The position numbers and the translations under genes are program-made. A stretch of 55,058 bases of DNA from NCBI GenBank assembly GCA_028532915.1, contig JAQQAI010000050.1, positions 1 through 55,058 on the forward strand, read 5' to 3'. A model generated the notes under the pieces. The model saw nothing but the letters and a program-made list of their open reading frames with translations. It was not told the origin of the DNA and ran no database searches. The stretch comes from Sphaerochaetaceae bacterium. Lineage in GTDB: Bacteria; Spirochaetota; Spirochaetia; Sphaerochaetales; Sphaerochaetaceae. Positions 7,862 to 29,727 of the stretch are shown here, piece after piece. The stretch's first letter is position 1, and each line of letters begins with the position of its first letter.

Positions 7862-7965
7862 TAAAAAAAGGGGAGGCCAGCAGGTTTGTTTGGGTGGGGA
7901 GAGAATCTCTGCTGGCCCCCTGGAAATCACACTAAAGGAGGTATGAAAAAAACTGTTGCTCTGTA
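7862..7965 (-). ncRNA. Candidate sigma-54-dependent small RNA with anti-Shine-Dalgarno motif
   Basis: A minus-strand transcript of about 104 bases is predicted. It would start about 12 bases beyond the sigma-54 element at 7976-7991. It would end at a terminator: the minus-strand stem formed by 7909-7920 and 7870-7883, followed by seven U (7863-7869). No ORF with a ribosome site lies in this strand. It contains ACCUCCUUU (complement of 7934-7942), the same nine bases as the mRNA-binding end of 16S rRNA. Its promoter is nearly identical to those of the two pspA genes. Function is unknown; a stress-induced regulator acting on Shine-Dalgarno sequences is an inference. Confidence 0.6.
7863..7920 (-). 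terminator. Terminator of the sigma-54 small RNA
   Basis: GGGGAGGCCAGCAG (7870-7883) pairs with CTGCTGGCCCCC (7909-7920) with one bulged base. On the minus strand it is followed by seven U. The strand polarity of the T run is the main reason to read this region on the minus strand. Confidence 0.8.
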
Positions 7966-7975
7966 CATATCTATA

Positions 7976-7992
7976 TGCAATGAGTGTGCCAA
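7976..7992 (-). promoter_or_regulatory. Sigma-54 promoter of the small RNA
   Basis: On the minus strand TTGGCACACTCATTGCA: the GG of -24 and GC of -12 are spaced exactly as required. The first ten bases and the TTGC are identical to the promoters at 27901 and 29770. Confidence 0.75.
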
Positions 7993-8147
7993 CTTCTAAC
8001 ATTTTTATGAAAAGGTGGGGAAAAGTTCTTATTATCAGCAAATACAAGGAGATAAACAAACAGTCCGATCATGAGATGTCATTTGACTTGTCGGAAATAC
8101 GTGTGAAAAATCTGCACAGCAGCCGATATTGTGCAAGGTTTGCACAA

Positions 8148-27213: not shown

Positions 27214-27849
27214 TCAGCTCTTTCCTTTCCCTTTCTTTGATCTGAGGGCTTCGAGTTCGGCATCGATTTCGTCCATCTGTTCAAGGTCGGCGAACTCTTT
27301 GTCCAGACTACTATTGTGCGCGTTCGGGCTCATTTTATCAAGATGTTCTTCCATCTGGGAGAAACGGAAATCGTAATCGTCTTCTTTGAACTTGCTGTTT
27401 TTCGATGGTCCGGCACTTCCTGCCTTCGCTCCGTATTGCTGAAATTTCGCTCTGACTGAAGAGAGTTTCTCTTCAACCTTGCTGATGTTATCCTTGCAGG
27501 CGTCGATCATCTCCTGCTTTTCAGCATGTTCTGCCTTCAGCTGTTCGAGCTGAGCCATAGTCTGTTTCTTCATCAGCAGAGCTTCTCTGGCGAGATCCTC
27601 TCTGTTTTTATCCAGCGCGAGACGTGCTCTGTCTTCCCATCTGGTGACCGCCGGTTCGACTTCACCGATATTCCGTTCGATTCTTTTTTGAGCAGCGATG
27701 GTCACGGCACAGGAACTTTTCAGTTCGATCAGCGTATCCTCCATCTCCTGCATCATAAGTTTTATCATTTTTTCAGGGTCTTCAGCTTTATCAAGCAGTG
27801 AATTGATGTTGGCATTCACAATGTCCAGAAATCTTGAAAATACTCCCAT
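27214..27849 (-). CDS. pspA: Phage-shock protein A (PspA/IM30 family)
   Basis: The 211-aa product begins MGVFSRFLDIVNANINSLLDKAEDPEKMIKLMMQEME, the membrane-binding amphipathic helix and first helix of PspA, and continues as a long coiled coil. A Gly/Ser/Lys-rich break occurs near residue 140, and the C-terminus is basic. It coats and stabilises a damaged inner membrane and, in proteobacteria, inhibits PspF. AAGGAG precedes the ATG at 27849. A sigma-54 promoter drives it, and the activator gene is divergent. Confidence 0.94.
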   Translation of the reverse strand: MGVFSRFLDIVNANINSLLDKAEDPEKMIKLMMQEMEDTLIELKSSCAVTIAAQKRIERNIGEVEPAVTRWEDRARLALDKNREDLAREALLMKKQTMAQLEQLKAEHAEKQEMIDACKDNISKVEEKLSSVRAKFQQYGAKAGSAGPSKNSKFKEDDYDFRFSQMEEHLDKMSPNAHNSSLDKEFADLEQMDEIDAELEALRSKKGKGKS

Positions 27850-27900
27850 ATCATTCTCCTTTGCCTTTGGCACTATGTTTCTATTTTGTATTAGTTATAT

Positions 27901-27917
27901 TGCAAGAAGTGTGCCAA
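27901..27917 (-). promoter_or_regulatory. Sigma-54 promoter of the pspA operon
   Basis: Minus-strand TTGGCACACTTCTTGCA matches the -24/-12 consensus with correct spacing. The predicted start is near 27890, giving a leader of about 40 bases. An AGTTGGCACACT core is shared with the promoters at 7976 and 29770. Confidence 0.88.
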
Positions 27918-28034
27918 CTTTCATTTCTTGAAAAAACACCAAAAAAAGGGAAATTCGGCCCTGAATGTATGTGCATTGTGTTAAACGGAAAATAATTTAT
28001 GGTGAAAATTACCGTCAGGTGGTAGTATACACCT

Positions 28035-29012
28035 ATGAGTGATAGAGCCCATCAAGTAAATCAGGCTCCTTTGGGAGAATCGGAATCCTTTCTTGCCTTC
28101 CAGGAACGCCTGAGCGAAGTAGCCAAGGTGAACCGGAGTGTTCTCATTGTGGGAGAACGGGGTAGCGGCAAAGAGATCGCAGCGACCCGGCTGCACTATC
28201 TGAGCCAGAGGTGGCAGTCTTCCCTTGTGACTGTCAATTGTGCGGCGCTTCCCCCTTCTCTGATAGAAACCGAACTGTTCGGACATGAGCCGGGGGCCTT
28301 TACGGGTGCCTCAAAAGGGAGAAAGGGTCGGTTCGAAGAAGCCGACAAGGGGACACTCTTTCTTGATGAAATAGGACTGATACCGATTGAGGTTCAGGAG
28401 AAGATCCTCAGGGTTGTGGAATACGGTACTTTCGAACGGGTCGGCTCATCAGTCTCCCATGAGGTCGATGTCAGGATAGTTGGAGCCACGAACGCGGATC
28501 TTCCAGCATTGTGCGCCGAAGGGAAGTTCAAGGAGGATCTTCTCGACAGACTCTCTTTCGAAGTTCTGTTTCTGCCCCCTTTGAGGGAACGTGAAGACGA
28601 TATACTCCTTCTTGCTGCCTACTTCGCCTCCAAGATGGCTCTGGAATGTTCCTACGAAGAACTTCCCTCTTTCAGCGAGAAAGTTGAAAGAGAGCTTCTT
28701 TCATACCATTGGCCCGGAAACGTACGGGAATTGAAAAACGTGGTGGAAAGGGCCGTCTACAGAGCCGGAACGTCTGTGATCGATGAGATTGTGATCAACC
28801 CTTTTATCAATCCTTATGCAAAACCTGATGCAAAAAGGACCGAAGAGGTAGAGCTCTCAAATTATGAGAATGCGAAGAAGGAACTCGATATCCTTTATAT
28901 CAGTCAGGCTCTGAAGAGTGCAAAAGGAAACCAGAAGGGGGCAGCAGAGCTCCTCTCTCTTACCTATGATCAGTTCAGAGGTCTCTACAGAAAGTATAAG
29001 GACGAGCTTTAA
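28035..29012 (+). CDS. pspF: PspF-type sigma-54 activator
   Basis: The 325-aa product is an AAA+ enhancer-binding protein without a receiver domain, as in PspF. It shows Walker A GERGSGKE near residue 40, the sigma-54 contact loop GAFTGA near residue 86, Walker [10 protein letters not shown], the arginine-finger region and sensor [14 protein letters not shown]-terminal Fis-type helix-turn-helix ends at [23 protein letters not shown]. The three sigma-54 promoters in the window are its likely targets. TAGTAT lies six bases before the ATG, so the message may be leaderless, though the -35 is weak. Confidence 0.92.
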
Positions 29013-29018
29013 AAGGAG

Positions 29019-29042
29019 AGGGCCCCGAAATATCGGGGCCCT
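29019..29042. terminator. Perfect 10-bp hairpin between pspF and the second pspA
   Basis: AGGGCCCCGA and TCGGGGCCCT pair perfectly around a 4-base loop. No T run follows; position suggests a shared barrier between convergent genes. Confidence 0.6.
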
Positions 29043-29061
29043 GCAAACGTATAACTGAATA

Positions 29062-29727
29062 TTACTTGGAGGTTTTCTCTTTTTTCAGAAGTGAAAGCTC
29101 TTTTTCGATGCTCTCTTCCTTTTCCATTTTGGCGAACGCAGCTTCCTTTTCCTCTTCCTTCGTTCTGTATCCCGCCATCTGGGCATCTGCTTCCATCCGT
29201 TCGATCTTCTGTTCGAATTCTGTGAATCTTCTGCATGTCGAGACGGTATCGAGTCCCTTGAGAGTCTCCAGGACCTTCTTTTTCTCTTTGGCATGGTAAG
29301 CGCGCTGGATCAGGATCCTCTGCTTTTCGACTACTTCATCCCTTTTCTCTTCCAGTGTGGTCACATGGGACTGCATTGAAGCAATGATCTGTTCCATCTG
29401 CTTCGTCTCTTCATCAAGATGTGCAAGTTTTCTCTCGACCCGCTGTTTTTCTCCGATTGCCTGTCTGGCCAGATCGTCTTTTCCCTTCTCGACTGCCAGT
29501 TGAGCCCGTGTCTGCCATCTTTCAAGCTCTTTTTCGACTTCTTTTCGCTCGGAGTCGATTGTCGTCAACAAGGCCATCTTCGCGGTAGTGGCACTCTTTG
29601 CTTCGACGATGGTATCATCCATTTCTCTGAGCATGTATTTTACCATCTTCTCCGGATCTTCGATCTTGTCGAGCCTGTCATTGATTTGTGATCCCATGAT
29701 TTTCTTGAAACGTTTTATCATCTTCAT
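29062..29727 (-). CDS. Second PspA/IM30-family protein
   Basis: The 221-aa product begins MKMIKRFKKIMGSQINDRLDKIEDPEKMVKYMLREMDDTIVEAKSATT, clearly homologous to the PspA at 27214-27849 (shared DPEKM-K-M--EM-DT). It is more basic at the N-terminus and longer in the coiled coil, with an acidic/basic Glu-Lys-rich C-terminus. It has its own sigma-54 promoter 43 bases upstream, so it is induced together with pspA. Two PspA paralogues may form mixed membrane scaffolds; that is an inference. AGGAG precedes the ATG. Confidence 0.9.
   Translation of the reverse strand: MKMIKRFKKIMGSQINDRLDKIEDPEKMVKYMLREMDDTIVEAKSATTAKMALLTTIDSERKEVEKELERWQTRAQLAVEKGKDDLARQAIGEKQRVERKLAHLDEETKQMEQIIASMQSHVTTLEEKRDEVVEKQRILIQRAYHAKEKKKVLETLKGLDTVSTCRRFTEFEQKIERMEADAQMAGYRTKEEEKEAAFAKMEKEESIEKELSLLKKEKTSK

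Follow-up and report, generated by a model that had tools for sequence, protein, structure and literature searches.

Regulatory RNA in spirochaetes is poorly known. Elsewhere, two kinds of small RNA (sRNA) bear on the locus described here. The Qrr RNAs of Vibrio (LuxO/sigma-54) are siblings under an NtrC-family regulator, with a separate sigma-54 promoter and terminator for each, and GlmY acts on the processing of GlmZ via RapZ. The gene of GlmY, from enterobacteria, is sigma-54-dependent (PMC3162934). The second kind carries an anti-Shine-Dalgarno (anti-SD) stretch, as in NfeR1, which reportedly pairs with mRNAs at translation initiation regions and silences them by covering the ribosome binding site, and in NfeR1 and the alphaproteobacterial alpha-r14 'cuckoo' RNAs an ultraconserved, unpaired anti-SD is accompanied by differing stems (PMC10746234).

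The locus analysed here lies in a 55,058-nt stretch of DNA from a Sphaerochaetaceae bacterium (the window) and resembles both kinds. With GlmY it shares the layout of a sigma-54-dependent sRNA gene, with Qrr the siblings that each have a sigma-54 promoter and a terminator and are apparently NtrC-family-driven, and with NfeR1 and cuckoo the conserved anti-SD amid differing stems. There are differences, too. Qrr RNAs are Hfq-dependent and of another sequence, whereas no Hfq was found in the spirochaete genomes; GlmY shows no sequence relation and has no anti-SD. NfeR1 has three hairpins, each with CCUCCUCCC, in contrast to one ACCUCCUUU beside a U-tract in the spirochaete RNA, which also has a sigma-54 promoter with paired enhancers and belongs to another phylum. 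The repeated CCUCCUCCC hairpins of the alpha-r14/cuckoo type were not found either (one CCUCCUUU per copy), and the missing Rfam match sets the RNA apart from Qrr and NfeR1 alike. Its closest kinds are sigma-54-dependent siblings (Qrr, GlmY) and anti-SD sRNAs (NfeR1/cuckoo); judged by sequence it is a member of neither and is best called a new family.

A putative small RNA gene on the minus strand

The best explanation of the locus is a minus-strand gene for a small regulatory RNA that acts in trans and belongs to a new family specific to spirochaetes. Its features are as follows (positions in the window):

8130 to 8146, no strand: enhancer palindrome 1, TGTGCAAACCTTGCACA, the genome's best site, ~155 bp before the promoter
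8102 to 8118, no strand: enhancer palindrome 2, TGTGCAGATTTTTCACA, one consensus mismatch, the genome's second-best site, 28 bp from palindrome 1
7976 to 7992, minus strand: sigma-54 promoter TTGGCACACTCATTGCA (-24/-12), exact match
7863 to 7965, minus strand: predicted small RNA of ~103 nt, its start placed 12 nt past the promoter GC
7953 to 7962, minus strand: 5' conserved stretch AGAGCAACAG, near-invariant columns in alignments A1 and A2
7934 to 7952, minus strand: proposed composite seed of U-tract (7946-7952), CAU and anti-SD ACCUCCUUU (7934-7942), conserved family-wide
7863 to 7920, minus strand: intrinsic terminator found by folding, with a 12-bp stem, a 25-nt loop and U7
7892 to 7904, minus strand: C-rich motif TCTCTCCCCACCC inside the terminator loop, of the CTCTCC/CTCCC type

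In a pattern search of the window, TTGGCACACTCATTGCA was one of three exact sigma-54 matches, the other two being the pspA promoters at 27901 and 29770. The predicted RNA folds with -29.6 kcal/mol (z = -3.3), a value that none of 200 shuffles equalled. The arms of the terminator stem occupy 7870-7883 and 7909-7920, followed by the 7-T run at 7863-7869; a simple terminator scan gave no match at this hairpin because its loop of 25 nt exceeds the permitted 8 nt. The stretch ACCTCCTTT was found at 7942-7934 (minus strand), where ACCUCCUUU stands immediately 3' of the U7 tract and CAU. ACCUCCUUU equals the 16S rRNA tail as generally known from bacteria.

The initial annotation had proposed just such a sigma-54-driven, terminated small RNA, with a minus-strand promoter laid out like those of the two pspA genes, a hairpin followed by seven U, and a nine-base anti-SD stretch. 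All three elements were recovered at their places, and the reading as a whole has strong backing in that promoter, enhancers, core, terminator and synteny are all conserved, as reported below.

The sense strand of the predicted RNA contains no ATG ORF, and a comparison of the family copies showed no conserved reading frame in either direction. One candidate, a short opposite-strand frame reading ATG AAA AAA ACT... (MKK...), was rejected because the T run has 5 to 9 residues and many copies lack the ATG, so that the frame is not conserved among copies.

Distribution and synteny in spirochaetes

BLAST with 201 nt detected the element in 26 of 61 relatives, all from the same bacterial family. A profile of promoter plus core was positive in 79 of the 91 sampled genomes of the own family and clearly so in five genomes from two other families of the class; reading the DNA of these five out-of-family copies confirmed promoter, UUUUUCAUACCUCC-type core and terminator. 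The full element was not seen in three further genomes with weaker profile matches, and the profile returned no copy from several MAGs of the family. Most genomes compared are metagenome assemblies; among the carriers is a cultured species, Sphaerochaeta halotolerans (L112).

A pattern for the RNA core, free of any promoter requirement, was scanned over one genome per species (~85,000 species) and hit 72 stretches with 74 copies. Their record titles name spirochaetes (Sphaerochaeta halotolerans, Bullifex porci, Pleomorphochaeta, Candidatus Ornithospirochaeta, and other Sphaerochaetaceae or Spirochaetales) with one exception, Candidatus Aphodenecus, the title of which gives no phylum, yet the same tandem element is present. 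Of these 74 promoter-blind copies, 70 retain the promoter, TTGGCA-N7-(T)GC, at a distance of 27-38 nt before the core. A plasmid search with the element gave no match. Rfam 15 yielded no covariance-model match above the gathering cut-off in six sources and, for the window region, only chance-level matches far below it; searches of the open-access literature on Sphaerochaeta and spirochaete small RNAs found no description of this RNA. It looks like a core riboregulator, without an Rfam entry, that serves a whole family (Sphaerochaetaceae and relatives).

Genomes carry one to four copies, with two in many loci, three in some and four in G072, and tandem copies have their own promoter and their own terminator each. 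These copies split into the subtypes CAUACUCCUCC, CAAACCUCC and CAACCUCC, elsewhere CAACAAACCUCC (L011, L012, L121, L245, L246), a sequence divergence that suggests siblings with partly different targets.

If the element were real, it was expected to recur beside rlmE and the rhomboid gene in relatives, and it does: among 52 loci, 45 have a rhomboid gene at no more than 2.5 kb from the element, and 40 have rlmE within that distance. Since rlmE is also directly downstream on the same strand in the window (7801-7184), the RNA might be a 5' leader or attenuator of rlmE instead of an independent sRNA. This is highly improbable, as 12 of the 52 loci have no rlmE nearby, every tandem copy has its own promoter and terminator, some copies reside on other contigs, and rlmE itself is preceded by a weak sigma-70-like site.

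Conserved anatomy and predicted folds

In the family alignments, the near-invariant parts of this presumably independent sRNA and its promoter are TTGGCA...TGC, AGAGCAACAG, a run of 5-9 U, CA and CCUCC. The terminator stem pairs in 122 of 124 copies (17 of 124 in a tail-shuffled control) despite 90 distinct arm sequences; thus, pairing is retained while the sequence drifts.

The folds around the anti-SD vary. In part of the family, the U-tract and CAUAC are predicted to pair with GUGUGAAAA, leaving CCUCC in a hairpin loop (e.g., CAUGCCUCCUUUGUAUG); other lineages have a CCUCC region predicted to be open; and for the copy in the window and some others, a short predicted fold pairs CCUCC with the terminator's 5' arm. 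The idea of one hairpin that displays the anti-SD throughout the family was rejected, as it occurs in some lineages only, with the anti-SD looped in 39 of 124 folds. RNAalifold on a MAFFT alignment likewise found no common structure. Because the hairpin exists in part of the family and the region is open elsewhere, the conserved entity is the anti-SD with its U-tract and not one hairpin. As in anti-SD sRNAs, CCUCC is conserved and accessible in many predicted folds: it is predicted to be unpaired or hairpin-looped in much of the family, not in all folds.

At least 63 of the 124 copies have a second C-rich motif in the terminator loop, which is kept while the stem sequence varies freely. This would fit an RNA that serves mainly as a decoy, binding some protein or other RNA by means of this loop, for instance, and not for pairing with SD sequences. 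We consider such a role very unlikely, given that the loop is missing in several short copies but CCUCC is nearly always retained, and that no partner was identified.

Enhancer palindromes and the candidate activator

The promoter at a fixed distance and the enhancer sites upstream are what characterizes a sigma-54-dependent sRNA gene. For the enhancers, the consensus TGTGMAA-N3-TTKCACA was built from the first copies of relatives; when tested on different copies, some of them closely related, paired palindromes appeared in 72 of 89 further copies vs 10 of 89 control windows, with 0.2 expected after shuffling. Across the family they lie ~55-200 bp upstream, with preferred start-to-start spacings of 18, 20 and 28-29 bp. 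A search of the source genome for TGTGMAA-N3-TTKCACA revealed no standout site beyond the two at this locus.

The source genome encodes seven sigma-54 activators, and two NtrC-family response regulators (C89 type and C20 type, named by contig) are the core activators of the family. Orthologs of the C89-type regulator are present in all RNA-bearing genomes examined; one RNA-bearing, incomplete genome (G036) yielded no C20 type. Two RNA-lacking genomes (G015 and G031) have the C20 type and, of the C89 type, only a receiver-less relative. A different palindrome, GKGTCA-N3-TGACMC, occurs in 11 of 12 loci of an RpoS-like sigma gene located near the C89 regulator and is absent upstream of all 32 sRNA copies checked. 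If the C89 regulator binds this palindrome, the C20 regulator would be the sRNA activator. In either case, the activator of the sRNA is likely an NtrC-family two-component regulator.

The initial annotation had instead regarded the RNA as induced by PspF, i.e., as a member of the phage-shock (envelope-stress) regulon. The source genome does have a genuine pspF (TIGR02974 above cut-off) with two pspA genes ~20 kb away, and the -24/-12 sites of the RNA and pspA are nearly identical. However, sigma-54 cores are alike across all regulons, and the likeness to the pspA promoters only says 'sigma-54'. Allowing up to 4 mismatches, TGTGMAA-N3-TTKCACA is missing from the 220 bp upstream of either pspA promoter, and the genomes G008 and G018 (97% and 99% complete) retain the RNA and its enhancers but have no PspF-type activator. 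PspF induction was thus not borne out, and we judge it improbable. In the window, pspF sits between the two pspA genes (27214-29727), and stretches of the GGT-N7-CC type upstream of the pspA promoters (GGTGTATACTACC, GGTAATTTTCACC, GGTATTTTTCGCC) may be PspF sites.

For the sRNA, we propose that an NtrC-family response regulator, probably other than PspF, would bind the paired palindromes ~110-155 bp upstream and open the -24/-12 promoter, where sigma-54 polymerase would be waiting, and that the transcript would end at the intrinsic terminator.

Predicted mode of action

The RNA had been suggested to mask ribosome sites or to act as a sponge for 30S subunits. A sponge that relies on base-pairing is excluded: the motif reads in the same sense as the 16S tail, and because it is identical and not complementary to it, the anti-SD can pair with the SD of mRNAs and not with 16S. 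Masking of ribosome sites is still the best reading.

Hfq (PF17209) was detected in 0 of 11 genomes with positive controls in E. coli and B. subtilis, a search that a very divergent Hfq could escape. Without Hfq, an exposed U-tract/anti-SD UUUUUUUCAUACCUCCUUU would pair with target mRNAs at their SD and start region, and this pairing would block 30S binding and lower translation. We consider it reasonably probable that the whole locus works as a sigma-54/NtrC-activated, Hfq-independent sRNA that blocks translation starts through an anti-SD plus U-tract seed. The locus would then link sigma-54 regulation with control by RNA in bacteria without detectable Hfq.

Target statistics were obtained for 396 translation starts in ~455 kb of the genome (400 kb of stretches plus the window), with start codons and signal peptides assigned by simple ad hoc rules. 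Starts with exported or membrane-type N-termini were predicted to form more stable duplexes with the RNA core than other starts (-17.8 vs -15.8 kcal/mol, p = 0.007). This export bias was gone after replacement of the U-tract, and none of 100 flank shuffles reached the same bias. In the loci of relatives, each with its own core, it recurred weakly (p = 0.036) and again required the U-tract. It arises because such genes start with AUG-AAA-AAA, where the U-tract pairs while CCUCC pairs with the SD; accordingly, the bias is modest and expected from A-rich MKK starts. It supports, but does not prove, selective repression of mRNAs for exported proteins. Since the predicted targets lean to exported proteins, less envelope and secreted protein would be synthesized under the inducing condition.

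Selectivity is not obvious, given that 84% of the sampled starts pair below -12 kcal/mol, and with such heavy generic SD pairing a general damper of translation is still conceivable, that is, an anti-SD mimic acting on SDs at large and lowering bulk translation under stress. The nine-base anti-SD match is generic as well, and several copies per genome could mean high dosage. For a generic SD mask, however, the conserved flanks (AGAGCAACAG, U-tract, CAUA) and the tandem subtypes would be superfluous, and the predicted bias to exported-protein starts depends on the U-tract; we therefore regard general damping as unlikely. The probable role of the RNA is to silence selected mRNAs at translation, perhaps mRNAs for exported proteins. 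This raises the question whether simultaneous pairing with the SD and the first codons can make an anti-SD RNA selective for one gene class.

A search for exact complements gave no strong single target, and no single conserved target was found. Within the window, four neighbouring genes (86-2923) encode small exported proteins of similar make-up, several of which start with MKK after AAGGAG-type SDs; by duplex energy, the gene for one small exported protein (86-706) is among the better predicted partners of the sRNA. A broader and more tentative possibility is that the spirochaete-specific, Hfq-independent siblings use the anti-SD plus U-tract seed to read SD-AUG-AAA-AAA, so that one two-component/sigma-54 system would lower secretory and envelope synthesis as a class.

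Sigma-54-driven genes with other enhancers

Rrp2, the regulator in the Borrelia Hk2-Rrp2-RpoN-RpoS cascade, is not known to have an sRNA output. In the source genome, a kinase and an NtrC-type regulator are adjacent, and a sigma-54-driven RpoS-like sigma gene follows ~3 kb further. The gene order at G000:C89:35987-41350 is murG-like, CvpA-like, DNA polymerase III delta'-like, soluble PAS histidine kinase and NtrC-type response regulator, an order similar to that of the Borrelia rrp2 locus. The sigma gene (L183, G000:C89:44655-45521; orthologs L184-L192, L204 and L205) encodes an RpoS/RpoD-like sigma factor of 289 aa; it has its own sigma-54 promoter, and its GKGTCA-N3-TGACMC palindromes often come in pairs with a spacing of 40 bp. 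The hk2 gene of Borrelia directly precedes rrp2, the product of which activates rpoS (PMC1976401). Likened by gene arrangement, the sigma gene and the NtrC-type regulator look like a free-living counterpart of this cascade, with the difference that the sigma gene of the source genome has its own enhancer palindromes, unlike those of the sRNA.

Membership of the RpoS-like sigma and Hsp20 genes in the enhancer regulon of the sRNA was ruled out by their GKGTCA-N3-TGACMC and TGTGT-type palindromes. The Hsp20 gene (L058, G000:C52:70905) has an exact sigma-54 promoter with TGTGTAAAAATGACACA ~158 bp upstream, which resembles the enhancer type of the sigma factor gene.
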